A stretch of DNA of 64,000 nucleotides. Origin: Nymphaea colorata (lineage: Eukaryota > Streptophyta > Magnoliopsida > Nymphaeales > Nymphaeaceae). The notes below the pieces were generated by a model that saw only the letters and a list, made by a program, of their open reading frames with translations, ran no database searches and was not told where the DNA came from. The stretch lies in contig NC_045139.1 of the NCBI RefSeq assembly GCF_008831285.2, positions 11,690,704 to 11,754,703 of the forward strand, read 5' to 3'. A program made the translations under genes and the position numbers. Below are positions 4,647 to 64,000 of the stretch, in pieces; position 1 is the first letter of the stretch, and each line of letters begins with the position of its first letter.

Positions 4647-4877
4647 AAATTGGATGGTGACTCTAACTATCCAAAGTCACCCAACTCATTTATGAATACC
4701 ATATGATCCATCAAGATAGACAGATGAAAAAAGGTGATGAGCATTTTTGTCATCTAATATTTGTTCATATTTTTTATCCTTATTTCTCTCCTAAGCATCC
4801 ATTACGATGGATCAGATGGCCGCATGAGTGAGCTTGGTGATTTTGGATAGCCAGAGCCACCATTCACTCACTCAATG
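4647..4877. mobile_element. MITE with about 35-bp imperfect terminal inverted repeats (MULE-like?)
   Basis: The left end (GGTGACTCTAACTATCC at about 4,655) is mirrored by the right end (GGATAGCCAGAGCCACC at about 4,848-4,864), giving long imperfect inverted termini around a non-coding core. Possible 9-bp target duplications TTTGGTGAA (4,638-4,646) and TTTGGTAAA (4,878-4,886) differ at one base. A related copy lies at about 32,430-32,655. Long TIRs with a 9-bp duplication are typical of Mutator-like MITEs; the exact ends are inferred. Confidence 0.45.
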
Positions 4878-6005
4878 TTTGGTAAAATATTTACAATTTA
4901 AGTTACACAGGTGCACATCAACATTAAATACATTCAATAAACATTTGTTCATTTTTTGTGGTGCATTTTGTTGAGAAACATGTAGAAGCATGCTGAGGAA
5001 GTGGCATCAACGAATGCTAATCTTAGTGTTTCAATTGGTCCATAGCTTTCAAGATTTCTAGTATATATTTCAATCTTTTTTAGAGTGTAACAGGAATTCC
5101 GAAAAATGCTGACTTTACATGGGTCTTTATATTCAGCCCAAATTAACACACCCAATGACGTGACGCTTGGAGAAACTCCTAGCTATGTTAATCATGCATT
5201 TTAAGTCACTTTGATATAGTGAGAAACTCAAGTCATTAATTTAAGTTAAGTTTCTTATTGTGTACCACACTCTTTTGTTTACTTTATTCCTACTTTCTCA
5301 ATCACTTTTTTGTCTGTCACTTTGATAGGTGTGGTTTCTATAATTAAGGGTTACACCCATTTATTTTTTATCTTATCTCATTTACAGTGTGATCTCATAT
5401 CATTCTTATTTGTTCCATTTGGCTTCTACCAATTTCACTTGTGTTTCTTTCCCCTTTATGTATGGCCTCACAACAAATTCTAATCCTAATTATAATTAGT
5501 AATTTGTATATATTCACTCCTCTTCCACCACTTCTAATATCTGTTTAGAACATGCATAGCCACAAAAGGGGAAGAGTTCATAGAAGTTTGGTAGTTCTGG
5601 GAATTGAGCAAGATGGTGTTGAATGTTATACTATAAGATGCCCTCCATGTTCCAAAATCAAAGAAACCTGTTTTTATCTAATCTCATATGCCAATATTAG
5701 TAAACCTCATATTGATATTACCTCTACTAATTTATTGCCAAAAAAAATATTAGGATATGTACATCAAAATTCAACCTGCCCACTCCCAAAATAGGGACAT
5801 ATATTACGGTACGAAGAGTTGCAAGAGGGGGTTCCCTATTACTGATCCATGGGCCTGATCCTTATATCTAGAAGCATTTGGTTTTGTTAAGATAACTTCA
5901 TTTTGAAGGAGCCTTTGAATCATCAAAACACCTCAATGAGTGGTGATAAATATATTGAAAATGCCAAGCTCTTTAGCAACCTAGCGATAATAGTTTGATT
6001 AGTCT
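4878..6005. other. Intergenic, nothing recognisable
   Basis: AT-rich sequence with one 80-codon plus-strand frame (5,552-5,794). That frame contains a CPPC motif but matches no domain known to me and has no flanking exons. Confidence 0.4.
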
Positions 6006-6060: not shown

Positions 6061-9000
6061 TCAACTCATTATCCAGATCTAAGTAGCTAGATATCAATTT
6101 AACACCAAGAAGTGATGTTTGTTTTACCTTGGCATCCATGTCTAACTTGAGATATTGTTCGTTGTGGTAATTCAATGCTCAACAAGTTAATTGAGTAGCA
6201 TGAACTGAATTACCATTTCTTGGCAATGTTGTCTGTGTTTTGAGATGCACCAAATGACAATATGATATGTCTACTTCCAATACATGCTCAGTTTTTTATA
6301 TCTACATGTTTGTTTTGTTCATTTGTTTAGGCCAACATAGCAATAATGAAGTTCCATACCTCAAATGAGACCTTGTAATATGAAAATAGGTGTGCTTCAT
6401 CCTCACTATCCAAGCAACACAGGTTGCACATTGACACCATGTTCAACCATGGCTCATCAACTAACTTTATTGAGGAGGCTTACTTCACAACTAAAGTAAA
6501 GAGCCCGTCTAGCATGAGGAAAGTGGTTTCCAAGGCAAATGAGATTCCTCCACTCATGCTTCTATCTTTGATTAACTCCACTATCATTCTCCTAGTAATA
6601 CCACAACTGGAATACCTAGTCCAACTATGTTGTAGTGGCACCTTCAATGAAGGTTGGAGCTCATAAATTTGGTTTACTTGTGCTAGCCAGCTAAAGGGTT
6701 TCATTGTACCTTTGGATGGTCTATCAGCATTTGGATTCACAACCTATGTGTTGTTCTTTACAGCCATCAAATGGATACAAGGAGGACACTAGCATATAGA
6801 TAGCCAAAAGTCTTACTTTGTCGCTTTCCTTGACCTGCCATGAGATCCACCCTTCAATTTGTTTAAAGGATTTGGGTCTCTCCATTCCATAGAGTTAATG
6901 GAGGAATTCACCAAGGTCCCCTGACTATGAGATTGAAAGTATTTCTTTGAAATTACAGTGCCACTGATTAACAAATACCATAGCGTGACAGGATAAATAA
7001 AACTACAAACCCATTAGTATAAACATATATTTGAATCCTTGCACCTCCTTTGGCTTCAAGTAAGCATATTTTCTCCAACTTATTCTATGAATGTGTCTGA
7101 AAACTTCCATACCCCACCCCAAAAAACAAAAAAAAAATTAAGCAAACTCTTTCTAAACTTCAAATAGTGCTGATGGTTATCAAGATTAAGCTTTGAATTG
7201 AGGTGAGAAAATATTCAAAGAAATATAATTTACCCACAAATGGTAATATCTTCTGATTACACAATGCTAACTTATACTTAGCTCTCATTAGACTTCATTG
7301 GCATCGAGCTTTCAAGTTTAATGGCTAGTGATGGGTTTCAAAAGGTTCTACTCCTTTTATTTGAGTGCAACCACGAGCAATGAGATAGGCTTTTACTTGC
7401 ACAATGTGCCATTTGCCTTAGCTTCACCTTGTAGACAAGTGTAGCACCTCCTAACATATTCATATTGGGAAAAGGCATTGAGATCTCAAGTGCTATAATG
7501 TCATAGATCAATAATTTCTTTGTCCATAGCTTTCTTAAAGTTAGAAAGGGTAAAGTGTAGTTGGCAAGCCCATGAATCGGGGCTCGGATCAGCTGCCAAC
7601 CAGGTCACTGGGTTAAAAAGTTGGCTCAGTGAAGTGTCTGAGTCAAGTTTTTATAATAAATGCTTAATTTAATGTTGTTTGGGTGGTTTACCAAGTTGAA
7701 ATTTGAGAAACTTCATTTTTGGTGGTTGCTAAAGAAAAATTTTGAACAATCCTTTCTAAAATTATGGCTTTCCTTTCAAGAGAGAACAAAAGAAAGCATC
7801 TTACACAACTCTCTCTTTTTTCCCTCTCATTAGGGTTTAGCATCTTATATCATCCTTCTCACCATCCTCTCTCTCTCTCTCTGTGGTTCATGTCTTCATG
7901 GTTGCAAGAAGGAAGGGCAAAAGACTGGAGTAGGATGGAATGCCATCTCTCTCTCTCTCTCTCTCTCTCTTCTTTGTTGTTCATGGTGGTAGGTTGCAAG
8001 AATGAAGGGAATTTCTCTTGGATGACTTTTGAAGCACAGGCCTTCCCGTTGGACCACCACCGGTTTTGTTCTTTGCTCGCATGAGAAGAAAGATGAATGC
8101 CTAGTTGAAGGAAACCCTCGCCCATGAACTTTCTTTTGAGTTTTAACCAACATTAAAGTTGTAAATCATTGCAAGTCAATGTTGGGTAGAAAAAAAAATT
8201 GGTAGTAGTAGCCGATGTGTTATTTTCTTTATCAAACCAAATTCAGACAATTCGGAGTTGACCCAGTGATTCCAAACGACCTGGGCAATACAAACCAATT
8301 TTTTTGAAAATCTGGTGTATACAGGTTAAACTTTGAATGTGACTTGTTTTACAACCGATTAGAGTTGACTCGGGCGATTCTGGAGTTGGATCGCCGAGTT
8401 TGCCAACTATGGTTACAACTTCTTTTATAGAGGGAGGACCAGAAGGAATGTTAGCATATATAATGGCAATGAAATTGGCATACTGTGGTTTAGACGTGAC
8501 AATACTTGACATGTTGTGGGTATTAACATGTCCTTCTAACTTCTCAAGATGCTGCACTGATCCTTCTAACTTCTCAAGATGCTGCACTGATCCCTTGTGA
8601 GACATCATGATATGGATGTGCTGGTGGGTGATTTCTACCCTCAGCTTGATCATGCAAAATGTTGATCTTGCTCATGAATAGCTTGGTCAGTGTTCATAGC
8701 TTGATCATGTGATTGTTGGACTAAATCATGGCAGCATCATCATGACTCTACAATATTTATTGTTGCTAAAAAACGATTGATTCTTTAGTGCCATTGCAAT
8801 TTTTTTATACTTACATGCATGTAGTGAACGAAAAGCTGAAAATGTCTGCATAGCTTTTTTGTATAGAGGGTAAGAGGGGTAAGATCATTGCCATCACATT
8901 GTGCCTTCATCAAACATACTATATGCCACATATATTCTTCTTCTTGGTGTGTGAAACTGGTGTCATCATTTAATTTATATTGAACTCTATACCTCAAGGA

Positions 9001-10916: not shown

Positions 10917-12273
10917 ATGTGGTGTGCCACTGATACACGGCTTGTTGCTCGTGGTTTCTTACAAGAGGAAGGCATCAATTACTTGGAAACATTCAGCCCA
11001 ACAGTAAAACCCACTACTATTAGGGTTTTACTTCCCTTAGTCGTGCAATATGGGTGGTCACTTCGACAACTTGATTTTGACAATGTCTTTCTTAATGGCT
11101 ATCTTGATGAATATGTCTATATAACTCAACCAGAAGGGTTTGAAGATCAACAACATCTTGCTTATGTATGCAAACTGGAAAAAGTCATTTATAGCCTCAA
11201 ACAAGCTCCCCGAGCTTGGTACCATTGGCTCAGTTGTCATCTTCAACAACTTGGTTTCTTCATCTCACAATCTGATGTGTTTATCTATTCCAAAGGCAAT
11301 GACAAACTTTTGTCTATGTTGATGATATAATCATTACTGGGTCATCCCCATCTTTGGCTGATTGGGTTATTCGTCAACTACATGATACATTTTTAGTGAA
11401 AGATCTTGGACTCCTATCCTATTTTCTTGGGATCAAAGTCACACAGATAGCTCAATCGTTGTATCTATGTCAACAATATTATATCAAAAGTATCGTCAAA
11501 CAAGCTAATATGGCCATGGCAATGCCTATTGTTTCACCGATGAGTACTAATAAAGGCTATGAGTCATCTCAGACACCCTTTGATAATTCTTCACTCTATC
11601 GAAGTGTGGTGGGGGCATTACAATACACCACCCTCAATCGACCAGACATAGCATTTGCTGTCAACCGAACTTGCCAATTCATGCACTCTCCTACAATGAA
11701 TCATTGGGTAATGGTTAAACGAATTCTGCGATATTTGAGTGGAACCAGTCAATATGCATTACACCTCAAAACATCGTCAGCATTGCAACTATGGGCCTTT
11801 GAAGATGCCGATTGGGCAGGAGGTCCAGAAAATAGAAAATCTACAAGTGGTTTCGTTGTATTCTTAGGAGACAATATCATATCTTGGGCATCTAGAAAAC
11901 AAAGAGCTGTAGCTTGATCCAGCACTGAAGCTGAATACAAATCCTTGGCACGTGTTGCTGCAGAACTTCTTTGGTAAAAATCACTTCTTAAAGAATTGAG
12001 AATAAATTTCTCATCTTCGCCCATTCTTTGGTGTGATAACATTGGAGCATTATATCTCGCAGCTAATCTAGTTTTTCATGCTCGAACTAAACATGTGGAA
12101 GTGGGTTTTTACTTTGTTCAAGATCACGTCAATCAAGGAAATATTCAAGTTAGATTCATACGATCTGCTGAACAATTGGCTGATGGAATGACAAAAGCTC
12201 TCAGCACTAGTTCGTTCAACATGTTTCGTGACAAGCTTAACGTGGTTGAACCAATGTTCAGCTTGAGGGAGCA
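10917..12273 (+). pseudogene. Ty1/copia pol remnant: reverse transcriptase and RNase H
   Basis: The reading starts inside the reverse transcriptase (RLVARGFLQ, then QLDFDNVFLNG and YSLKQAPRAWY). It shifts frame near 11,310, just before the YVDD active-site codons, and continues at 11,354-11,917 with FLGIKVTQ, a TLNRPDIAF motif and the RNase H region (DADWAGG, STSGFVVFLG). A TGA stop at about 11,915 and a TAA near 11,976 break the RNase H before TKHVEV and the C-terminal ADGMTKAL motif (11,996-12,273). Gag, protease and integrase are missing, so the 5' half is lost. The SLREHV ending directly overlaps the polypurine tract, as in Ale/TAR-type copia elements. It is not functional. Confidence 0.88.
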
Positions 12274-20128: not shown

Positions 20129-20881
20129 TCAAGAGGTCTCAGGAGTTTGCTGGGTGACTCCAAATTTTACCAATAACTTGTTAACTGAGTCTGGTGAACA
20201 CACTTGGTATTTGACCTCGCCTGTAGGGGCTAAAAGGATCTCAGCCAGTTCAAGCTTGTCAGAGGTTAAGCTTGTGCTGTCCATAGTCTTGCTCAGCACT
20301 TTCAATACCAACTGTACTGCTTCTTCTCTTGTGATATCATCCTTGTATTCTTGCTTAAGCATGGACTGTGCAGCCGGATTATTTGCTCCTATCGCAGCAG
20401 CCTTCCATCCTCCATAGTTTCCACTCGGATCGCTCATGTACAATTGAAACCCAAAATTTTTGTCCCAACCAGCAAACAAGAATGACACACCAAATGGACG
20501 AAGCCCACCAAATTGTGTGTATCCCTGCTTCGTATCACACAAAGATTGCACCAGTTGTTCAACAGGCATGGGTTCCTGGTAAGCATAAGCATAACGTTGA
20601 GCTTGAATTCGAGCAGTGTTAATTAGGATGTTAGCATCAGACATGATCCCTGCCACAGCACATGCCAAATGGTCATCGATCTTATACATTTTCTCCGTGG
20701 ACTTTGATGCCTGCAGCAGCTTTGATGTAACCTTTTTCTCCCCAACCAGCACAACTCCATCCTTGGCCAGGACCCCAATAGCGGTTCCAGCATTTCCTAT
20801 AGCCTCCATTGCATACTCAACTTGGTAAAGTCGGCCTTCAGGAGAAAAGATGGTCGTTCGACTGTCATAGCGCCTAGACAT
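20129..20881 (-). CDS. PAC1: 20S proteasome subunit alpha type-4
   Basis: This is an intact 250-residue single-exon frame, the normal length for the family. The N-terminus carries the proteasome alpha signature ([24 protein letters not shown] begins at residue 5), followed by the Ntn-hydrolase fold without the catalytic N-terminal Thr, as expected for alpha subunits. [14 protein letters not shown] and [14 protein letters not shown] are typical alpha4 stretches, and [14 protein letters not shown] is the conserved loop. The product sits in the outer rings of the 20S core particle, gating substrate entry for ubiquitin-dependent proteolysis in cytosol and nucleus. The start is fixed by a Met directly before SRRYDSR and by an upstream splice acceptor (TTTTCTGCAG ending at 20,894), which implies a 5' UTR intron. 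It lies head-to-head with the RsgA gene. Confidence 0.97.
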
Positions 20882-20893
20882 CTTGCTTACTTA

Positions 20894-33839: not shown

Positions 33840-35463
33840 ATGTTAGTTAATGTTATTTTCCTTTCTCTCCCCTCTAAGCATGCTAGAGAGAGAAGAGAGT
33901 GTGTGTGTCTTGAGGTGCGGTGGAGACACTGGTTTGAGGGAATCGGTTGAATGGAATCCGGGGGGCCAGCCCTCCCAGAGTTCGCTCTCTGTCCCGTTGG
34001 ACCCTCTTTTCCGGTGGGCCCGGCCGTTAGAGTTGGACTCACACCGGTGTGACGACCCACAACCCCTAAAACTTCGCTTTTGTCACTAGCCGTCACCCTT
34101 AGCCGCGCCGGCGCAGCTCCTTATGGTTTTTCCACTTGCTTGCGTTGGTGGCGGTGGCCGGTGGTGGTGGTCGCGGTGCCGGCACCGGCGGCCGCCTGAG
34201 CCTCTCCACGTACAAGCCCCGGCGTACCCTTCTCGAACCAACTCGCGCCTTCTCACAGAAATTGCATTTTTAGATTCTTTCCTTTCTGTGTCCGTGTGGC
34301 ACCTGACCGTTTCTCTCTCTTACCCGCGCAGGAACGTTAAAACTGAATGGTGTCAGTATGGATACTAAAAATGGTGGATATTGGGCACCATTTTAGAGGA
34401 TTTGGGCGAGGAGATGAACTCCAACGGAACTGCTCCATTTCTGTGAGTCTGCAATCAGGCTTTATCTCCTCTCTCTCTCCACTTTTTTGGGTTTTCCCAA
34501 TTTGTCCATACAGTCATTCTCACCATCGTTACTTTAGATGCATATATAAGGTGACCGATAGATAGTGTGTTTTATATTTTAATTGCATACCCACATCAGA
34601 TTATGTATGATACGCGGCCAGAAAAGGAAAACCCGTTTTTGCTCTTTTATTTTAAGGAGAAAATAAAGAATCGCATTTGTAATGGTCGGTCTCTCTCTCC
34701 TCTCTCCCTCGCTCTCTCTCTCTCCCCCTCTCTGTCATATGCATGGTAACTTGGCAAGAGGGGCTTTATGTGCAGCATGCTTGATGGGGATAGCTTGAAT
34801 GGCGCTGTAACTTACTCCTGTATGTTTTTTTTCATCTGCCCTGTTTCCATTTCTTCTCGTTCGTTTTGGATGGTGAACTGCTAGTTGAGTTTCTCTTTTT
34901 GTCTCGAGTAATAGCTCTTGATATTTGTACTGTGGCCGTATAAACGACAATGGTTCTGATGTGTTTATGTTTAGCGTGTATTAGGTGGGGTTGTTGGTGA
35001 CCGTGTTGGTTTATGATGGTTATCTAGATTGTTGGTTTAGGCGTTAGTTATGGCATTTGATCAAATGTTTGATGCGTATTTTTTTGCTTTTCTCCTTCAG
35101 TCCGTGGTTTTCTTTGTTGGCCACGCCATTTTCGCATGCTCTTAGGTCTTGGATGTTGCTGTCCCGTTGAGATTAAGGACTGGTTTTTTGTTTGATTCCT
35201 TGGCGAAGAAAATTAGGATCTTGGTCGTCTATTTGTATGTTTAGGTGGTTTGCTGATGGTCTTTATTTTGTGGATACTGTTCTATTCTATTTCATGAGCC
35301 ATTGAATAAAATCTTATTTCTTGAGACTTGAGAGCAATATTTCTGATGATGTTGCATTGGATGTTACAACTATGATGGTTTCAGTTTAAACATGGTCTTT
35401 GTAAAATTTGGAGTATACAAACGTGGGTGGGAGTCAGAGGAGGGGTAGAAGGTGAACTCTATA
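33840..35463 (+). promoter_or_regulatory. F-box gene promoter, leader and 5' UTR intron region
   Basis: A GC-rich island (about 33,950-34,250) stands out from the AT-rich surroundings. It contains a perfect 14-bp palindrome TCACACCGGTGTGA (34,039-34,052) and a 10-bp palindrome GCGCCGGCGC (34,105-34,114). CT-rich leader-like tracts follow at 34,468-34,482 and 34,687-34,735. A possible acceptor (GGTTTCAG at about 35,383) and upstream donors suggest a leader intron, but the pair cannot be fixed. A TAG in frame at 35,446 shows that coding does not extend upstream. Confidence 0.5.
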
Positions 35464-36753
35464 ATGTGTTCTGGCATTGATCTTCCTGGGCGCAGATACA
35501 ATCTAAGGAGTAATGGAGTGTCTAGCGACGCAGACTCTGAGCGAGGATCTGAGGCCCTTGTTCATTCATTTTCATCAAGAACCAGACGGAGACGTGTTAT
35601 CACAAATAATGTCGGATCTGACGAACCTTTAGGCCTGCGGCCAGTTAATCCTAATATGGAGGAAGATACCATAGACTCTAATGGTGAACCTCAGGATGCA
35701 GATTACTCATACATTCCCTTGCTCAGTGATGAGCTTGCACTTTTGATCCTTGCTAGGATCCCTAGGTCAGAACATCCAAAGCTTTGTTGCATAAACAAGC
35801 GATACATGGCTCTGGTGAAGAATGGGGAACTGTCTAAGATACGAAGGGAGATCGGAGTTACTGAACCATTGGTTATAATCTTCGCCAGTGGAGAGCATCA
35901 TTGGTGGGAACACTCTCCAAGCTCTGGGCTTTGGAGAAAGCTCCCAGATTTGCCATCTGAACCATCGTTTCATCTTGCAGACAGGGAATCCCTATGTGTT
36001 GATACTCAGCTGCTGATATCTGGCCTTGAGAGCAATGGCATGTCGGTTTGGAGATACGAATTGCTCACAAACAGTTGGCACAAGGGTCCATCAATGGCGA
36101 CTCCGAGATGCTTATTTGCATCAGCAAATTGTGGAGATGTTGCCCGTGTTGCTGGTGGGACCAAAAACCGAACAATCTTGAATTCAGCTGAGCAATACAA
36201 TCCTAGAACTAAATCCTGGGAACCCATGCCCAGCATGAAACAGCGAAGAAAACTTTGTTCAGGGTGTTTTATGGACAACAAATTTTATGTAGTTGGTGGT
36301 GTCAATGAAGAAGGCAAACTAACCTCTGGTGAATTCTTTGATAGAGAGAAAAAAACATGGCATCTGATTCCTGGCATGATCAATGACTTGTCTAGTTCTG
36401 ATTGTCAGTCTCCTCCCCTTGTTGCTGTTGTGAACAATGAGCTGTATTCCCTTGAAACAACTACAAACAAGCTGAAAGTTTACTTGAAGCAGAGCAATTC
36501 ATGGAAGGACCTAGGCATGGTCCCTGTGAGAGCAAATCACAGCAGGGGATGGGGCGTTGCTTTCAAATCTCTGGGTGATAGGCTTCTTGTCATTGGTGCA
36601 GCTTGGAATGCTGTGGATCATCACAGCCAAGGCATATCAATTTTTTCTTGCCAGCCTGATCCCAATGCAAGAGATGCTCACTGGTTTTTTCTTGGGAGGA
36701 CAGGTAACTTCATGGGCCCCTTTGTGTTCAACTGTTCTATCATGGCTGTGTAG
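35464..36753 (+). CDS. F-box/kelch-repeat protein
   Basis: The protein is about 429 residues in a single exon. I start at ATG 35,464 because the frame upstream holds only a GTG (35,452) and then a stop. The N-terminal 75 residues are Ser/Arg-rich and disordered-looking. A short F-box follows (about residues 77-118: LLSDELALLILARIPRSEH...CCINKRYMAL). Kelch repeats come next: LESNGMSVWRYELLTNSW, VAGGTKNRTILNSAEQYNPRTKSWEPMPSM, and FYVVGGVNEEGKL...WHLIPGM, with the usual GG, Y and W spacing. The ending is FNCSIMAV, matching the conserved C-terminus of plant F-box/kelch proteins of the At5g60570/At1g74510 type. Such proteins are substrate receptors of SCF (SKP1-cullin-F-box) ubiquitin ligases. 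The substrate is unknown. Confidence 0.93.
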   Translation: MCSGIDLPGRRYNLRSNGVSSDADSERGSEALVHSFSSRTRRRRVITNNVGSDEPLGLRPVNPNMEEDTIDSNGEPQDADYSYIPLLSDELALLILARIPRSEHPKLCCINKRYMALVKNGELSKIRREIGVTEPLVIIFASGEHHWWEHSPSSGLWRKLPDLPSEPSFHLADRESLCVDTQLLISGLESNGMSVWRYELLTNSWHKGPSMATPRCLFASANCGDVARVAGGTKNRTILNSAEQYNPRTKSWEPMPSMKQRRKLCSGCFMDNKFYVVGGVNEEGKLTSGEFFDREKKTWHLIPGMINDLSSSDCQSPPLVAVVNNELYSLETTTNKLKVYLKQSNSWKDLGMVPVRANHSRGWGVAFKSLGDRLLVIGAAWNAVDHHSQGISIFSCQPDPNARDAHWFFLGRTGNFMGPFVFNCSIMAV

Positions 36754-49580: not shown

Positions 49581-50254
49581 AGGCAGCCATTCCTCCCCAT
49601 ATGACTTGGGGAAAAAGAATCTTCCGGCCGGCCATTGTTTAACCAACCTCGACGGAAACTGCTTGACATCCACAGCATGAATTCCTGCTTAACGTTGGGC
49701 AAAGGCTCTTGTCATGATGAACCCATGCTATGTATTCATGATGAGTATATAAGGCAGCTTGAGTAGTAAAGTCTTTTGCTATAAATGCATATGCACAAGC
49801 AGGTAAAGAGTACATGTGTTGAGCTACCTCTTCAAAGAAATCAGTCCTCTCCAGGCGCATTCTTTTCAATTGAATCCTCTGCACTCACAGGTTCCGTCGT
49901 TCCCATAGCTTATCCTCCATTAATGTTGAGGTTTGAATTCTGCAATGGAGCTTCAGTCAATCTCCTCAGTCTCTATCGACTCAATGCTCTTTATTTTTTT
50001 TTCCTATGAAATCTATCTAAATTATACATGAATTGAATTCTATTATAGTATATAATGCCGTATCGTACTGCCCTTTCTAAGGTGATTCTTAGACCATGCA
50101 TATTGGAATAATATATCATTTCTTTTCCCCTTCTTCCTTTCTCTCATCCTTCCATTCATCTGCATCCCTCTATTTCATTTTCTGATCCCAATTCATTTTT
50201 CCATGGATTCCTGAAGATGAAACGAAATATGACATGACTCGAGTCAGAGTAGGG
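49581..50254. other. Possible organelle-derived sequence, no gene
   Basis: No nuclear gene is seen. The segment 49,800-49,960 has a texture like organelle spacer (TTCCGTCGTTCCCATAGCTTAT), and it leads into the tRNA-His copy, so the organelle insert may start here. This is not proven. Confidence 0.3.
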
Positions 50255-50328
50255 GCGGATGTAGCCAAGTGGATTAAGGTAGTGGATTGTGAATCCACCA
50301 TTCGCGGGTTCAATTCCCGTCGTTCGTT
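50255..50328 (+). tRNA. trnH-GUG: Plastid-type tRNA-His(GTG) copy in nuclear DNA
   Basis: GCGGATGTAGCCAAGTGGAT and GGATTGTGAATCC (anticodon GTG) are the well-known plastid trnH sequence. The T arm CGCGGGTTCAATTCCCG is intact. The acceptor end reads CGTTCGT instead of CGTTCGC, so the first pair is G-U. Neighbouring sequence is not the normal psbA spacer. It is probably an insert from plastid DNA, directly or through mitochondria, and is unlikely to be used. Confidence 0.85.
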
Positions 50329-50499
50329 TATTCACATCATTCATTATTTTTTCTTATAATTTGATCCAACAAGGATTCATATTAAAAATGTATAATTCTC
50401 AAGAGATATAGAAGTGTTGGATATTGATTTCTATACCGTATGGTAGATGGATTAGTGTGATTGAATTGAATAAAATTATCCATTACTGTATGGTAGTGA

Positions 50500-52110: not shown

Positions 52111-53025
52111 CAGCAGCGATCAAGTAACGATTCTGGCGCACCATCAAGCAGAGAATTGGGAATATGAGATGAAGCCAGAATATTGATCATCTCAGCCACC
52201 GTACAACTCTTCAGTCTTCCCCCGAGACCTCCAGGTAAAGGCAGCTCCCCTCACACTAGACTGGCCAAAACTTGATGTTAGCCCACACAAACACTCCATC
52301 TAACTGGCGGCCCGAGATTTTCTACTCAGACTTATCCCTTTCATGAGACACGAACAGGATCAACCAGGCTTTAGAATCCACTGATAGTTTCAGCCCTTAT
52401 TAATCAGGCCCAAAGTGTATTCCAAATACAAAGCACACCATCTAGTCACTCGCGTCATCAATTTAGAGCTGACCCTTGAACGTATTTATTTTCTCATACC
52501 ACCAAAAAATATTTGGCGCACGCATTAATTAAATCGCCCATACATGACGATGTTGTCCACAGGGAGGGCCAAGGCAAAAAATTTCAGTCAGATTAGCTTT
52601 AAGTTACTTCCTGCTTGTCCAACTAGAAATCGAATTTTCCGATGCCAGTTTAGATACGACGGCATTATGCAACTAAACAGGGTCTCATGAGAAGAATGTC
52701 GCCGGTGAGGGTGACCTAGGTTCACAAACCCAAGAAGGCAGGCTTCATAACACCATCTCCCACAGAACACGGCTACCAAAATAAATAGACGGAGCAGCGT
52801 CTACCGGAAAGAACCCATCCAAACATGCACCCCAGATCCTAATAAAACACGTTACCCAAAAATTAAGTTGGCAGACATCCAGGCAAGAGACGTCATTGAA
52901 GAGACAAAAGGAATATAAACCCAAAATTCATTTAAGAACTCAAGAGACAAAAGAACTATAAACCCAATATTCAACAAGGGACAAGAAGTCCAGAAGCCTA
53001 AAAGCACCCTCTCCCTCTCTCTCTC
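52111..53025. other. Possible LINE debris and RPL17 3' flank
   Basis: The minus strand from 52,560 to 52,110 may continue the LINE remnant but holds many stops. The 200 bases before 53,026 should contain the RPL17 3' UTR. No other feature is seen. Confidence 0.35.
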
Positions 53026-56000
53026 TCAAGAGGACGCCCCGCTTCGAATTACTTGACTTTTCTTGGTCCTCCTAGGAGCAACCTGCGTATCCACCTGCAG
53101 CAAAACCACATGCAACTAAATAAAACCTCCTCCAGTGAAACAGACATAAACCTTGAACGCTGTATCAAAATACCACAATAGAAACAGACTTCCAGATCAA
53201 AACAACCATGTTGATAACATTCTCAATTGATAACTTGTCGAAGGGACGGGCTAGTTAAAAGAATGACAAACATCTTCAATAAGGCACGACAATCAGAGAA
53301 AGAGGAACCAAATTTAAAATACAAACATTTCCATCAATCGGGTCAGGTTTAACGTAAACAGCCAAAAGGCAAGTGGAACTACTAATTGAAAAGCAATCAG
53401 AAGATTGTTTTATAAAACAATGTTGCAATTTGTTCGAGGCCAGCCATGAAGGATCAGAGAGGCACGGAGAACTGCATAGGTTATGCTATTGCCAGCCTTC
53501 AAGGCAAATACACGCCATGTTTTCAAGACAGTTTTGCTCTGCTAACTGGCTTAGAGTCAAGACCGATGGTAACAATACGAACAGCCAAAAGGCAAGTAGA
53601 ACAATCAATTGAAAAGAAACAAGAAGATTTTTTTCTAAAACAATGTTGCAATTTGTTCGAGGCCCGCCATGAAGGATCAGGGAGGCACGGAGAACTGCAT
53701 AGGTTATGCTATTGCCAGCCTTCAAGGCAAATACACGCCATGTTTTCAAGATGGTTTTGCTCTGCTAACTGGCTTAAGAGTCAAGACCAACGGTGAAAGG
53801 AAAGGTAGCACAGTTCCAAATGAAATAAAAATAAATAAATAGTTTTCTTCTAAAAGAATGTAGCAACTTGTTCGAGGCCGGCTATGAAGGATCACATTGG
53901 CACGGAGAATTGCAGAATCATGCTATTGCCAGCCTTCAAAACAATATTTGCCATCGGTTTAACAATTTTGCTCTGCAAACTGGCTTTAAGGGTTTGTGAC
54001 AGCCACATAAAGAAAGCCAAAAATAGCATCAGCAAAGCTATTTATCCACAAACAGAACATAATTGAATTTTTTGGTGCAAATAAGAACATCCAAGAAGAC
54101 ATATAAGCACACATGATGAGACAGTTATACCAGATACCACAATGCACAGCCATGCACAAGAAAACCAATTTATAGTGCATATCAGACTAGCCATATACAT
54201 TATACACATCTACATGTACAGCAAGAGACATGAACGTATAAAAGTTGCTGGGAACAGAAAAAAAACAAAGAAGATATAGTTGACAGACATGACGAATTTT
54301 CAAAGTTCAAGGAGAATATTAGAAAACAAAGTTACACACCTCCTTTTTAACAGGTGCCTCCTTCTCTGACAAAATCAACTCAATATGGCAAGGTGAAGAC
54401 ATGTAAGCTGCAATTGAGTAACATATTGTTATCACAACTAATCCCTTATGTGATAGAAGGCAGTAGATACAAGAACAATAAACAGGAAACTTACGGTTGA
54501 TTCGCCCATGTGCTCGGTAAGTTCGTCTTCTTTGCTTCTGGGCCTGGTTGACTTGAATGTGGGATATATAGAGTGTATCTACATCCAAGCCTTTCACCTG
54601 AACAGATATTGATACTACCATTATTTGCAGAATATTAAAAAAAAAGTAGTCCAAAGCAAAATCTGGAAAAATAAGAAGCCATACATCAGCATTACTCTCA
54701 GCACTTTTCAGCAGGTTCAAGATAAATTTGGCAGATTTTTCAGGCCAGCGACCCTGTCCATTTGAATGACGAATCTTCGCTTGAGCTGTTCGCCCAACCC
54801 CTCCACAAAAACGCCTGAAGGGAATGGCTTGCTTATGAGCAATAACATCCTCAAGGTACCTCTTAGCCTTAGCTAATGGCAGTTTTCTTATTGCAAAAGC
54901 TGTCTCCCTGGTATTCTATGTAAGAAAAAAAACATTGCTTAACATACTTATTAAGGGTATTATGGCATTAACAGAACACTGAAAAAAAATATATATACAG
55001 ACAATACTTCCACATAATTTCATACACAGATATCATCACAAAATGTGCACCTCAGAGATAACAAAACCGCTTGCTTTCAGCAACAAACAACAAGAGTTAC
55101 AAGACCAAAAAACATACTCTGTCAATCGAAGGCTTTATATTAGTATGGAAATGGAACTTCATTCTTCTTAGTCTTTCAGTTTTCTAAAGGAGTAAATTTA
55201 GCCAATAGCAAGCAGAATCCCAAAGAGAAGATGATACCTCAGATCAACTCCAGACTTAAGAAAAAAATATTGCAAATGGATCCATGGAGAAACTAAAACA
55301 TATATACATACACACACAGATATATATATATATAACAAACTCATCATCCATTGAGAAAAGTTAAAAGGATTTTGTACTGATCCAACCAAGAACGTATCAA
55401 CAAAAGTGTGAACTATAGTTAACTACACAAAACAATAGCCGCCAACACCTGAGCAGATAACCACCCGGTATACCCTGTTCAAATGATGGAGAAGCGCTAT
55501 GTAACATTATTTTTTGAACCTTTTGTCAGAGGCCAAGCCTACAACGGTTCACCCAATAACAATGCAATCTATGTTCCTGAAGCTTACGAGAGACCAGTTC
55601 ATTGAGACAACAAGTCCCTGCTTTTTTTCTTCAGGTATCGCACCAATTCCTATCAAATCGAGCGTGGGCAAAAGGAGAAAACAACATCAAAAAAACAAGA
55701 TGGACACTTTTTTACACGCAAGAAACAAAATCCGTTCCTTAATATTTTAACATAATAGTCACGTCAAAGGAAACAAATCCACAAAACGGCCAATGAGACA
55801 CCGATCAAGTTCGTGGTCGAAGTGGATATCACTTATAGTTACCACTAAATGAAAAGGATACGAGAAATGAAAGCGAGGATGTGAATGCTTATAAAATATA
55901 ACACCAGGACCGGCCATGGGATTCGGTGACGTATCGAAGGGGGGATCCCACTGAAACCGTGGAAATGAATACTAGAAAACCCCTTCTAAGCTCGCCCAGT

Positions 56001-56477
56001 AAATCCCCAGAAGCCCTCAAGCTTACCCAGAAGCAACCCGTCAGAAAAGCAAAAAACCAGAACTCGAAATCAAACCATGAACCAACTAATGACACCCAAA
56101 CCCATACATTTCACCAAACATAAGGCATTCAACAACACCGGACCAAAATTCACACCATGAAAAGGCCACAAACACTCGAGAGAAAAGCTAATATGCTTCG
56201 CAAGAATTAAAAGACCCGATTATATAAATAAAACGGCAATACCTTGAAGTGAACCCTAAGATCCGAACCCCTAGCCTTGCAGGCTGAAACAATACCAAAC
56301 ATTTTTGTCAGATCAAACCAATCAACCGTCGAATCCAAGCATTTGTAACGTAAAAGCCACAGATATAGACCATATAAGAGTCAGGAAGCTCGCCTTTAGT
56401 AGGATTATCGGGTTCCCTGGAGTACTTCACCTGAACAAAAAAATGCGAATGAGAAAAGCAGGACTCAGACGAAATCG

Positions 56478-56530
<53 letters not shown>

Positions 56531-56538
56531 TTCACCAT
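53026..56538 (-). CDS. RPL17: 60S ribosomal protein L17 (uL22), seven coding exons
   Basis: Coding exons, 5' to 3' on the minus strand: 56,536-56,538 (ATG only), 56,394-56,430, 56,243-56,283, 54,685-54,915, 54,495-54,597, 54,340-54,407 and 53,026-53,094. They sum to 552 bases, 183 residues plus stop, in agreement with the family. The product reads [85 protein letters not shown], then [17 protein letters not shown], and ends VRS-type IRSGASS. uL22 lines the peptide exit tunnel of the cytosolic large subunit. All introns are GT-AG except intron 2, which must use a GC donor (AAAG|GCGAGC). The last intron (1,245 bp) carries three H/ACA snoRNA-like units. Intron 1 is half microsatellite. Confidence 0.96.
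53417..53553 (-). ncRNA. Box H/ACA snoRNA-like unit A in RPL17 intron 6
   Basis: On the minus strand GCCAG (53,550-53,546) pairs with CTGGC (53,495-53,491). The upper stem GCAAAA...TTTGC encloses CTGT/ATGG pairs. The H box ATAGCA is at 53,489-53,484, with exactly 14 nt between upper stem and H box. The second hairpin is closed by TGCAGTT (53,476-53,470) and AATTGCA (53,429-53,423). ACA follows at 53,422-53,420, three bases before the inferred 3' end. Length is about 137 nt, normal for plant H/ACA RNAs. Pocket sequences TTAGCAGA and CTTGAAGG would guide pseudouridylation. The upper stem of hairpin 2 is weak in my fold. The target is unknown. Confidence 0.72.
53641..53776 (-). ncRNA. Box H/ACA snoRNA-like unit B in RPL17 intron 6
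   Basis: This is a near-identical tandem copy of unit A. Same GCCAG/CTGGC closing stem, H box ATAGCA, TGCAGTT/AATTGCA stem and ACATTG end at 53,641. In the upper stem CTGT of unit A becomes CCAT, turning two wobble pairs with ATGG into Watson-Crick pairs, so the pairing is kept. Flanking intron sequence is duplicated as well (AGCCAAAAGGCAAGT at about 53,360 and 53,583), giving a repeat period of about 224 bases. Confidence 0.72.
53856..53988 (-). ncRNA. Box H/ACA snoRNA-like unit C in RPL17 intron 6 (diverged)
   Basis: The oldest-looking copy. The GCCAG/CTGGC stem, H box ATAGCA, guide strings TTTGCAGA and TTGAAGG, and CTCCGT/TCGAACA of the second pocket are kept, while loops and spacers have changed. 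The closing stem of hairpin 2 reads GCAATT/AGTTGC, a changed but still paired version of that in units A and B. ACA is followed by TTC at 53,856. Conservation of boxes and pockets against variable loops is what a functional guide RNA family would show. Confidence 0.62.
56481..56530. repeat. (CA)n(GA)n microsatellite in RPL17 intron 1
   Basis: About 13 CA units followed by about 12 GA units on the plus strand. On the transcribed strand the CT run starts five bases after the 5' splice site, so it occupies half of a 105-bp intron. Confidence 0.9.
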
Positions 56539-56640
56539 CTCCACCACAGATCGAGCTCCCCCTGCAAGAGCGACGTCGTCTCGTGCTGCTTAGAGAAGGA
56601 AGCAAACCCCGCTAGGGTTTTTCGCACTTATAAGGGAGGA
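56539..56640 (-). promoter_or_regulatory. RPL17 core promoter and 5' UTR
   Basis: On the minus strand TTATAA (56,633-56,628) is followed by a telo-box AAACCCTA (56,620-56,613) and then a pyrimidine-rich stretch (CTTCCTTCTCT) where transcription probably starts. The telo-box is a hallmark of plant ribosomal protein and translation-apparatus genes. The leader runs directly into the ATG at 56,538. Confidence 0.7.
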
Positions 56641-58500
56641 AATTCCGGCTTTGCCCTTTGAGAACTTAGGGCATTTCCCTTGATACGGTTATACCCCTTG
56701 ATTTCTTCGTTTTCCTTTTCCTGTCCCCATTCGACAACAGATCGGGTCCGAACCAGATCCGCTTTAGCTACTAAAATCCATATTTCAGGAAAAATACCAG
56801 AATTCACATTTCATTGGGTCTTGGATGAACGCTGTTTAGGCAACAAGTTTGACCCGGACCAGGTCAACGTTGTCGAGCTAAGACACGGATCCTGACTTTA
56901 CTCGACGAAGGACCTGAGCTTACCCTGCTCTCCCTATTTAGAGATGTACGGCCAGTCAAGCTAACTTGGGCAGTTGGGCTCAACTCGAACTCGCCCATAT
57001 GAGCTCAACTCAAGTCTCAATCTCCACTTGTTTAATAAACGAGTTGATTTTGAGCTTGAGTTCAAACTCCAATTCTAAATGAAGTTTGAATTACCCAAGT
57101 TCGATTCGTTCAAACTCGACTTAGCTCATGTCTTCTATGTTTGTTAATCTTCATGGGCATGTTGGTAAGTTTGATGACTTTGAATGTCCTTTTCATGGTT
57201 TTCAGATCAAGTGACAAACTGAGACGAGTTGAGTTCAGACTCAGTTTATCAAGTCGAGCTCAGCCATGGTTTATCGAGCCAAACAATATGTAAATGGAGT
57301 CGCATTCGAGCTCGACTTTCTTATTATGTATCCTATCACTGCATTAGACCTAAGATCCAAAATCTTAGCTGGCACTAAAACTTGGATTTGAAATTCCCCT
57401 TTTTATATGATAGGAAGATTCATCGTTTGTATAGAAATTGATTTCATAAAGCGTGGATTTTAGATCCCCTCCAAATATATCCCAATTATTTAAACATGGC
57501 TTTGTGTTCCAAGGGTACTACAAGGGCAAGATGATCTTTACCCTTATAAGACTCAAACTAAAATCCTACATTTTACAAGTCCTTTTCATGACCGGCTACG
57601 CTATACTCCTTTAGGTTAGTCTAACTTGTTATCTTATTATTATTACTTAGTCCTAGTACGATTGATAGAGCATAAATATTTATTTTCTTTCTATAGAGGG
57701 AAAACATTGTCTCACCTATCAAACTCTACCTTCCAAAGGATACTATTACTGAATCATACTTTCTCATTTTCTTATAAGACTTAAGTAAAGCTGTAAACTT
57801 TCAGGTACAAGTTATTGATTAATTTATTATTAACATTGTAAAAAAAGTTGTTACAGGTGAATGTAGAATAGCAGGGCTATCCCTTATGGGTTTGTGCAAT
57901 AATGTATATTCAGGTAGGATCCATCATTTGGCAAATGTTAGTTACTTAATTGGATTTCATGTAAATGAATCTGCATTAGGATTCATACCCTAAATTTTAA
58001 AACGAGACTCAAATCTCACTAGGATAATATCCAACATCTGTGTATAATGATGTCAGATATTTATTGAATCCCAATAAAAGTATGAAGACATGAATTCATA
58101 TTTCAGCTAGGAAATTGCATATCAAGGTTTGAATCCGATCATTAATGGGATGTGATGTGTTTTCCAGAACCGACTACACTGATCCGAAACTACATATTTC
58201 CTATCCATTGATCCATTTGGCCGATGACATTGAGTAAGCACCGCGTGCAATTGCAGAGTCTTTCGAGACATGAAAAAAAGTTCATAAGATAACTTTTTCA
58301 TATTACTTGTTCCTCAAAGTTCCATCTTTGGAAATGAAGGCCGAGGCTCTCACTTTTTTTGATCACGCGGTGACTAATTGCCGAAACTGAAGGGGAATTG
58401 CTCCATTCATCGACAAGTCATAAACGAGATGCGTTGTCTTGAACGGAGACGTTCGGGTTTATAGTGCCTTCAAGAAAATTTTGTGAAGGACAATCATCAA
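56641..58500. other. Intergenic with GAGCTCGA-type repeat, copy 3
   Basis: The segment 56,945-57,330 holds the same family of words as at 28,950 (AACTCGAACTCGCCC, TTTAATAAACGAG, GTCGAGCTCAGCC). The rest is AT-rich with no gene. Confidence 0.5.
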
Positions 58501-58504
58501 CGCT

Positions 58505-58578
58505 GGCCTATTAGCTCAGTTGGTTAGAGCGTCGTGCTAATAACGCGAAGGTCGCAGGTTCGAGACCTGCATGGGCCA
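58505..58578 (+). tRNA. Nuclear tRNA-Ile(AAT)
   Basis: The 74-nt cloverleaf is complete: acceptor GGCCTAT pairs with ATGGGCC, D arm AGCTCAGTTGGTTAGAGC, anticodon loop CTAATAA (AAT, read as IAU), T arm GCAGGTTCGAGACCTGC. The internal A and B boxes (TAGCTCAGTTGG and GGTTCGAGACC) match the RNA polymerase III consensus, and a run of ten T at about 58,600 is the terminator. No intron; CCA is not encoded, as expected in plants. Confidence 0.95.
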
Positions 58579-58598
58579 TTTATACTTTGAGCGCTTCT

Positions 58599-60223: not shown

Positions 60224-60292
60224 TCTAGAATCAGAGCCAAGTTGCAATATTTGTGTTTGTGGTAGTTGGTTTTAAGGACTGTGACGTCAAAT

Positions 60293-60844
60293 ATGTCAAT
60301 GACTAAGTTTGACGGCAATATTAATTTTGGTCTATGGCAAAAACATGTAAAAGCCATTTTGGTTCAGAACAACTTGCATAAAGCCTTGCTTGGAAAAGAG
60401 AAATCAGGGATTAAAGATGATGATTGGGATGAGTTAGACCTGAAGGCAATCAGTACAATTCAGCTTTGTCTAGCTAATGAGGTAATGTATAATGTTGCAG
60501 ATGTAGATACTACGACTGATTTGTGGGTTAAATTAGAAAAATTATATATGTCGAAGTCTCTCACAAATAAGTTGTATTTGAAAAAGCAGCTCTATAGTTT
60601 ACGTATGACTGATGGGACAAATTTGTTTGAACATTTAAATGTCTTTAATAGGTTAATTACTCAACTTCGCAGTGTTGGTGTTAAGGTAGATGAAGAAGAC
60701 CAGACCCTTCTTCTTCTTTCATCTATGCTTAAAGTGTATGACCATCTTGTGACTACTATTCTTTATGGAAAAGACACTTTAAAACTTGAAGAAGTTAGAA
60801 CTACTTTGCTTTCAAATGAAGCCAGACATAAGCCAAATCATTGA
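60293..60844 (+). pseudogene. copia gag (UBN2-type), stopped early
   Basis: The first ATGs are at 60,293 and 60,299, the latter before TKFDGNINFGLWQ. The frame has the conserved LWQKHVKAIL, LWVKLEKLYM, LKKQLYSLRM and FNRLITQLRSVG of copia gag and ends at a TGA (60,842) before the zinc knuckle. The knuckle at about 60,945-61,000 lacks its first Cys and its His and has a TAG inside. No functional Gag. Confidence 0.88.
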
Positions 60845-62569: not shown

Positions 62570-64000
62570 TCCAGTTATGTCTACTGAATCATTGACTTTT
62601 CAGAAAGCGATGATAGTAAAAGATGGATGGCTGTTATGGAAAATGAAATGAAGTCTCTTTAAAAGAATCAGACATGAGAACTGGTAAGTCTTCCAGAAAA
62701 AAAGAAAGTTATTGGCTGCAAATGGATGTTTAGAATAAAAGAATCCTCAAGTGCAAAAGAACCACCAAAGTACAAAGCCAGGCTCGTGGCCAAGGGCTAT
62801 GCTCAGAAAAAATGAGTCGATTTTTCAAAAATTTGTCTCCAGTTTTGAAACATTGCTCAATTAGAGTTTTGTTAGTCATGGTAGCTATTGATGATTTGGA
62901 ACTAGAACAACTAGATGTTAAAACTGCATTTTTACATGGTAGCCTAAAAGAAGAAATATATATGCAGCAGCTAGAAGGATTTATTCAAGCAAAAAATGAA
63001 GAGCTAGTGTGCAAATTGAAAAGGTCACTCTATGGCTTGAAGCAAACACCACGACAGTGGTACAAAAGATTTGACACATTTATGTTGGCACAAGGCTACA
63101 ATAGGAGCAGGTATGACAGTTGTGTTTACTTTCATTTTTTGAATGATAGTTCTATTATTATTTTGATGCTTTATATGGATGACATGCTTATAGCATGCAA
63201 ATACATACTAGAAATTGCTAAGTTAAAATATGAAATTAAAAATGAATTTGAAATGAAAGATTTGAGGGTAGCCAAAAGAATTCTAGGTATTGAAATTCGT
63301 AGAGATTGAGAGAAGAAGAAATTGTAGTTGACACAAAAGGAGTATGTTAATAAAGTGTTGGATAAATTCAATATGAAGAATGCAAAATTAGCATATACTC
63401 TACTTACTCAACACTTTAAGTTATTTTTGAAAGATTGTCCTCAATCTGAAAAAGAGAGCAACGTTATGAGTAAAATATCATATGCTAATGCAGTTGGATG
63501 TCTTATATATGTCATGATTTGCACTAGGCCTGATTTATCTCATGCAGTAAGTGTTGTCAGCAGATATATGGCAAATATATGTCAAAGACATTGGTAGGCA
63601 GTAAAATGGATTTTGCGATATTTGAAGGGCTCATCATATTTTGGTTTACTATTTCAGGCAGGTACAAATATTTCTGATGCTTTTATTGGCTATGTTGATT
63701 TAGATTACGCAAGTGACTTGGTGGACAAAAGAAGATCAACAACAAGGTACATATTTACTCTAGGTGGACGCCCAATCAGTTGGAAAGTTACATTATAGGA
63801 TATTGTTGCTTTATCAACAACTGAATCAGAGTATATTGCTGCAGTAGAAGCTGCCAAAGAAGCAGTTTGGTTAAGAGGACTTGTTAATGAACTGGGTATT
63901 ATGCAGGAAGGTGTCAAATTACATTGTAATAGTCAAAGTGCAATTTTTTTAGCTAAAGATTTAGTTTATCATTCAAGAACTAAACATATAGATGTTAGAT
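62570..64000 (+). pseudogene. copia reverse transcriptase and RNase H, degenerate, cut by window end
   Basis: RT starts with KARLVAKGYAQK at about 62,776, meets TGA at 62,811, shifts frame, and goes on with LEQLDVKTAFLHG, LYGLKQTPRQWYK and the active site LYMDDML (YMDD rather than the commoner YVDD) to a stop at 63,307. RNase H follows with ARPDLSHAV-type RPDLSHAV, RYLKGSS, DADWA-equivalent VDLDYASD and STTESEYIAAVEAAKEA, interrupted by TAG at 63,594 and 63,796. The text runs out at TKHIDVR, so the 3' end and LTR are outside the window. Confidence 0.9.

Follow-up and report, generated by a model that had tools for sequence, protein, structure and literature searches.

The last intron of the RPL17 gene holds three tandem copies of a snoR86-family RNA, which have box H/ACA architecture and complementarity to non-plant 18S rRNA. 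We consider it very probable that these are tandem snoR86 gene copies whose RNAs are released from the RPL17 intron and assembled into H/ACA RNPs; the 3′ pocket would guide the uridine equivalent to Psi406, and the 5′ pocket would be a candidate second guide.

snoR86 copies in two RPL17 genes

The window, i.e. the whole stretch of DNA that was analysed, is 64 kb in length. When the window was run through cmscan with the Rfam models, six matches exceeded the cut-off: three to snoR86 (RF00303), one to snoR74 (RF01231) and two to tRNAs. The two snoRNA families, together with the RPL17 gene, point to a plant genome. The tRNAs are a tRNA-His (GTG) gene at 50254-50329 (+) and a tRNA-Ile (AAT) gene at 58504-58579 (+). 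A permissive Rfam scan of 52500-58000 returned nothing beyond the standard scan. By eye, the window also contains pieces that are Ty1/copia retrotransposon-like, at 11303-11917 (+), 60266-60844 (+) and 62734-63309 (+), and two uninterrupted ORFs; the ORF at 20129-20890 (-) resembles a 20S proteasome alpha subunit, and the 434 aa ORF at 35449-36753 (+) resembles an F-box/kelch-repeat protein. The RPL17 gene and its snoRNA units are arranged as follows.

53029..53094, minus strand: RPL17 last coding exon, ends in stop
53095..54339, minus strand: RPL17 last intron, GT...AG (splice-site ends on the gene strand), contains the three snoR86 copies
53417..53553, minus strand: snoR86 copy A, full-length H/ACA unit (Rfam match 53419-53539)
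53640..53776, minus strand: snoR86 copy B (Rfam match 53642-53762)
53855..53987, minus strand: snoR86 copy C (Rfam match 53857-53973)
54340..54408, minus strand: RPL17 exon, 5′ side approximate
54496..54597, minus strand: RPL17 exon, ends approximate
54682..54915, minus strand: RPL17 exon, 3′ end approximate (Pfam PF00237)
55497..55627, minus strand: snoR74 (RF01231), second H/ACA RNA (91.2 bits, cut-off 44)
56243..56284, minus strand: RPL17 exon, 5′ end approximate
56395..56430, minus strand: RPL17 N-terminal exon, ends approximate

All three units match the RF00303 model over its full length (1-123), with scores of 84.7 (A), 75.5 (B) and 78.5 bits (C) against a gathering cut-off of 40 bits. 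Because of this match, with E values of 2.7e-14, 3.9e-12 and 7.5e-13, respectively, chance is ruled out; judged by the family model, the units are copies of snoR86, a box H/ACA snoRNA already described from plants. In their 3′ pocket arms and their H and ACA regions, all units are like RF00303. An earlier, sequence-only reading of this DNA had described three H/ACA snoRNA-like units and had not recognised the RNA. The description held in all three units and the RNA is now resolved as snoR86; since every unit lies above the covariance-model cut-off, the notion of an unknown RNA is rejected.

The units are 133-137 nt in length (n = 3), all on the minus strand. Copies A and B form a direct repeat of 197 nt at 93%, with a spacing of 223 bp (the earlier estimate was a period of about 224 bp). 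Pairwise unit identity is 97.1% for A-B, 81.2% for A-C and 78.9% for B-C. The 5′ flank of C is unlike those of A and B; the ∼15 nt right after the ACA are still similar. By these identities, the tandem duplication behind A and B is young and C is older, the same order of events that had been proposed.

The RPL17 (uL22) exon stretch matches Ribosomal_L22 (PF00237) with an E value of 6.3e-20. Copies A, B and C lie between the last two coding exons, inside 53095-54339 and on the minus strand like RPL17, which is the last-intron, host-sense location given in the sequence-only reading; three snoRNA units in one intron on the host sense strand form an intronic cluster. The window snoR74 is in an earlier RPL17 intron, between the exons ending at 56243 and starting at 54915. 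Like snoR86, snoR74 is an H/ACA RNA of the same gene; different from snoR86, it occupies another intron and belongs to a separate family. In PMC2653536, snoR74 is listed beside ACA21 and yeast snR10.

A search of the plant's own genome (407.8 Mb, 783 contigs) with RF00303 found at least five snoR86 matches, three in the window and two on a further contig, C3; the search scored 45 of 56699 first-look candidates, which makes five a lower bound. All five matches listed are above the cut-off of 40 bits. On the C3 stretch (L017) there is a second RPL17 gene, in which all six exon pieces recur, and the two C3 copies, D and E, are again located between the final two coding exons. When a model is made from the three window units alone, it finds both over positions 1-137, with 118.8 and 117.4 bits. 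The C3 paralog also contains two snoR74 copies, at L017:7457-7587 and 7716-7846, in an intron that matches the single snoR74 intron of the window gene. The earlier reading had named a lack of the unit in RPL17 introns of related species as evidence against it; within this one genome, the unit is conserved in the intron of a paralogous gene, with two copies.

H/ACA architecture and the 5′ end of RF00303

Each of the units A, B and C runs in the order hairpin, H box ATAGCA, hairpin, ACA. The lower stem GCCAG/CTGGC, the H box and the ACA are present in 3/3 units, just as had been claimed. The H boxes of the two C3 copies are AGAGCA and ATAACA, both of which fit ANANNA. The elements of copy A are listed from the 5′ end of the RNA.

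53540..53553, minus strand: first 14 nt of copy A, outside the Rfam model (which starts at 53539); lower-stem strand GCCAG and 6/8 nt of the 5′ pocket arm TTAGCAGA
53496..53503, minus strand: 3′ arm of the 5′ guide pocket, CTTGAAGG
53484..53489, minus strand: H box ATAGCA (ANANNA), by sequence
53464..53471, minus strand: 5′ arm of the 3′ guide pocket, TTCTCCGT, complement of 18S ACGGAGAA
53431..53438, minus strand: 3′ arm of the 3′ guide pocket, CTCGAACA
53421..53423, minus strand: ACA box, by sequence

Minimum-energy folds gave two hairpins in 3/3 units. A two-hairpin structure of 26 pairs is formed in 76/76 pair cells of the three units, compared to 27-44% when it is slid by 1-3 columns, a contrast that is partly built in as the structure was drawn from the scored units themselves; the shuffle control for this structure is uninformative, with 500/500 shuffles reaching the observed value. 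The free-energy z-scores are modest (-1.26, -1.30 and -2.01 sd relative to shuffles), so fold energy alone would not decide the structure. These energies, 1.3-2.0 sd below shuffles, are what one would cite for tandem repeats without RNA function in which the hairpins arose by chance; however, the family match has an E value below 1e-11 per unit and the units are conserved in the second RPL17 gene, and we regard that reading as extremely improbable compared to snoR86 gene copies.

Six stem pairs vary on one side and none on both among the three units. In this alignment, the stems of A, B and C show conserved pairing and not compensatory covariation; of the earlier claim that stem changes keep pairing, the kept pairing stands, with one-sided changes in 6 pairs and two-sided changes in 0. 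When all five copies are compared, 99.2% of 128 pair cells are standard pairs (27-48% in slid versions), and one upper-stem pair is changed on both sides, being G-C in two copies, G-U in two and A-U in one. Covariation at the observed level is reached by 309/500 shuffles, and five copies this similar therefore cannot prove the structure by covariation. Counted along the sequence, the distance from pocket to box is 14 nt to the H box for the 5′ pocket and 15 nt to the ACA for the 3′ pocket; the 14 nt claimed earlier is right for the H box, and the ACA distance is 15. The target U of H/ACA RNAs is located ∼15 nt upstream of H or ACA, according to PMC8351944.

Compared to RF00303, which begins at GAGCAAA, the window units reach 14 nt further 5′; the Rfam matches start at 53539, 53762 and 53973, 14 nt inside the units. 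The structure line of RF00303 has two short hairpins in its 5′ part, whereas the full units form one hairpin with GCCAG/CTGGC. Similarity among the five copies begins ∼12-14 nt upstream of the Rfam model start. The last 12 of the first 14 nt are alike in all five except for one A/T change, and the run AGCCAGTT(A/T)GCAGA is common to the five-copy alignment. Among A, C, D and E, identity in ten-column bins is 0.00-0.44 up to column 60, 0.72 across the border and 0.95 inside; the ten columns with the 5′ arm have an identity of 0.95. At the 3′ end, the same four copies have an identity of 0.87 around the ACA and 0.39-0.53 downstream. In 5/5 copies the lower stem GCCAG/CTGGC is paired and shows no variation, which agrees with the stem and is no proof of it. 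Taken together, RF00303 probably lacks ∼14 nt, including one lower-stem strand and the greater part of one 5′ pocket arm, as judged from five copies of one genome.

Guide pockets and 18S sites

The snoR86 copies are presumably transcribed within the RPL17 pre-mRNA. Based on what is described for H/ACA RNAs in PMC8351944, they would be processed out of the last RPL17 intron and would assemble with dyskerin/NAP57, NHP2, NOP10 and GAR1. The 3′ pocket TTCTCCGT / CTCGAACA would then pair with 18S rRNA around ACGGG-U-N-ACGGAGAA, and in this plant such pairing may direct pseudouridylation of the U equivalent to human 18S Psi406 (yeast 358). The 5′ pocket is a candidate for a second guide function, at the 18S position that is U302 in yeast.

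According to PMC2653536, snoR86 is the plant functional homolog of U71 (Table 2; chicken 18S-367, 8+3 nt, 3′ hairpin); the human U71C/D site is given as 18S-406 in PMC6466398. We scored the pairing on non-plant 18S, using eukaryotic rDNA that occurs as ten stretches in bacterial assemblies. Eleven stretches matched the 18S pattern, and ten of them are rDNA by context; they were picked by a pattern from the same 18S region, so that finding this region in them tests nothing. As an observation in its own right, these ten loci (L002-L011) are eukaryotic, partly yeast-like rDNA contigs inside public bacterial genome assemblies; in viral contigs, the eukaryotic rRNA patterns had 0 matches. L008 was verified as SSU_rRNA_eukarya with 842.8 bits. 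L009 is yeast-like: its 18S is 1800 nt in length, and 14/14 published yeast 18S pseudouridines land on a U (list: PMC8307265).

The left arm of the 3′ pocket forms 8/8 pairs in 10/10 rDNA loci, with one G-U in 6 loci; the right arm forms 4 pairs, one of them G-U. In a scan of the L009 18S and the readable start of its 25S (94 U, so that the 25S is practically unscanned), the 3′ pocket ranks first at U358, and shuffled guides scored equally high in 3/500 (A/B) and 1/500 (C) cases. U358 plus 48 gives 406, on our assumption that yeast Cm414 is human Cm462. These results support the U71 site of 18S (human Psi406, yeast position 358) as the target of the 3′ pocket, as predicted from complementarity to non-plant 18S; the target, which the sequence-only reading could not name, is thereby resolved for this pocket. 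The likeness between snoR86 and vertebrate U71/SNORA71 (18S Psi406) concerns the kind of site, with 8+3 nt paired by the 3′ hairpin; what the two share in the table of PMC2653536 is the target. PMC8522698 describes SNORA71 as inactive at a predicted 28S site, and predicted H/ACA pairing therefore need not mean activity.

A neighbouring site, U379, was also considered as the chief 3′ pocket target. When first scanned, with one or the other arm set a base short and a one-base gap allowed, U379 ranked top with a score of 24, and 2/300 shuffled guides scored as high; the complementarity is GTTCGA-TT-CCGGAGA, 21 nt from U358. With both arms at the pocket ends U358 is top, in agreement with the published 8+3, and U379 was set aside.

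For the 5′ pocket, a double-guide reading has snoR86 also serving the plant U that corresponds to yeast 18S Psi302, a site located 56 nt upstream from the 3′ pocket target. We hold it tentatively, at somewhat below an even chance. U302 is the top U for both window versions of the 5′ pocket in the L009 18S and readable 25S start, ranking first among 61 candidates for A/B and among 74 for C. Of the 510 U, 14 are published yeast 18S pseudouridines, U302 being one of these (list: PMC8307265); yeast Psi302 carries no mark as shared with human (PMC8307265). The pocket arms GCAGA (left) and TTGAA (right) are invariant in 5/5 copies, and in L006 and L011, which have a G beside the target U, copies A/B, D and E pair there. 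However, shuffled 5′ pocket guides scored equally high in 146/500 (A/B) and 19/500 (C) cases, and the ranking comes from a yeast-like 18S and 94 U of 25S. Moreover, 5 of the 10 loci (L002, L004, L007, L008 and L009) have an A beside the target U, to which copies A, B, D and E oppose a C, and only copy C pairs (6+5). At L003, L005 and L010 (3/10 loci), a U302-type site is absent at the matching distance; in L003, these letters do occur at another place on the contig. Judged from these alignments, U302 is a weak candidate for the 5′ pocket. In yeast, snR49 guides 18S Psi120, 211 and 302 as well as 25S Psi990 (PMC8307265); its Psi302 is the candidate target of the snoR86 5′ pocket, and we claim no homology between the two RNAs. 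A further idea, which we hold to be unlikely, is that a double-pocket guide was overlooked as the library model is without the first 14 nt, that the copies differ in their fitness for Psi302, and that copy number and type could tune two neighbouring modifications.

Possible copy turnover and significance

An unfiltered search with the window-unit model found relic-like snoR86 matches on the C3 stretch at L017:4580-4707 and 4781-4900 (-). They are weak (18.6 bits, E 0.013; 12.1 bits, E 0.26) and adjoin the intact copies in the same intron; the first retains CTTGAAGGCTGGC. With two intact copies and two such relics in one intron, the second RPL17 gene lends some weight to a view in which the tandem duplicates are in part redundant or in decay, just one or two of the genes work, and copies are born and die in a tolerant intron. 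We regard this as possible, yet rather unlikely for the window, where 3/3 copies retain the H and ACA boxes, the two pockets and all named stem pairs with letters on both sides; copy C is intact despite a difference of ∼19% from A. The reading that we prefer remains that of tandem snoR86 gene copies.

The units add members to a family that is already known, as are its class and snoRNA clusters in introns, and the find is mostly ordinary. Intronic snoRNA gene clusters occur in rice (PMC8351944) and intronic snoRNAs are few in plants (PMC5122169; PMC8351944), which makes the RPL17 intron location less usual there than in animals. In the open-access literature, the name snoR86 occurs in one paper; by title, that literature yielded no work on RPL17-hosted plant snoRNAs, and the available part of PMC7464842 has nothing on snoR86-type RNAs. 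With the literature scope being open access, the RPL17 location and the 5′ pocket target may already be published, and we do not claim otherwise.

The identity of the cluster is settled, and the general picture of plant snoRNAs is unchanged. For the family, the five genomic copies suggest that RF00303 is truncated at the 5′ end and its structure there wrongly drawn; U302 is a testable candidate target for the 5′ pocket. For this plant, the occurrence of snoR86 and snoR74 in introns that correspond between two RPL17 genes offers a local case of copy birth and decay.
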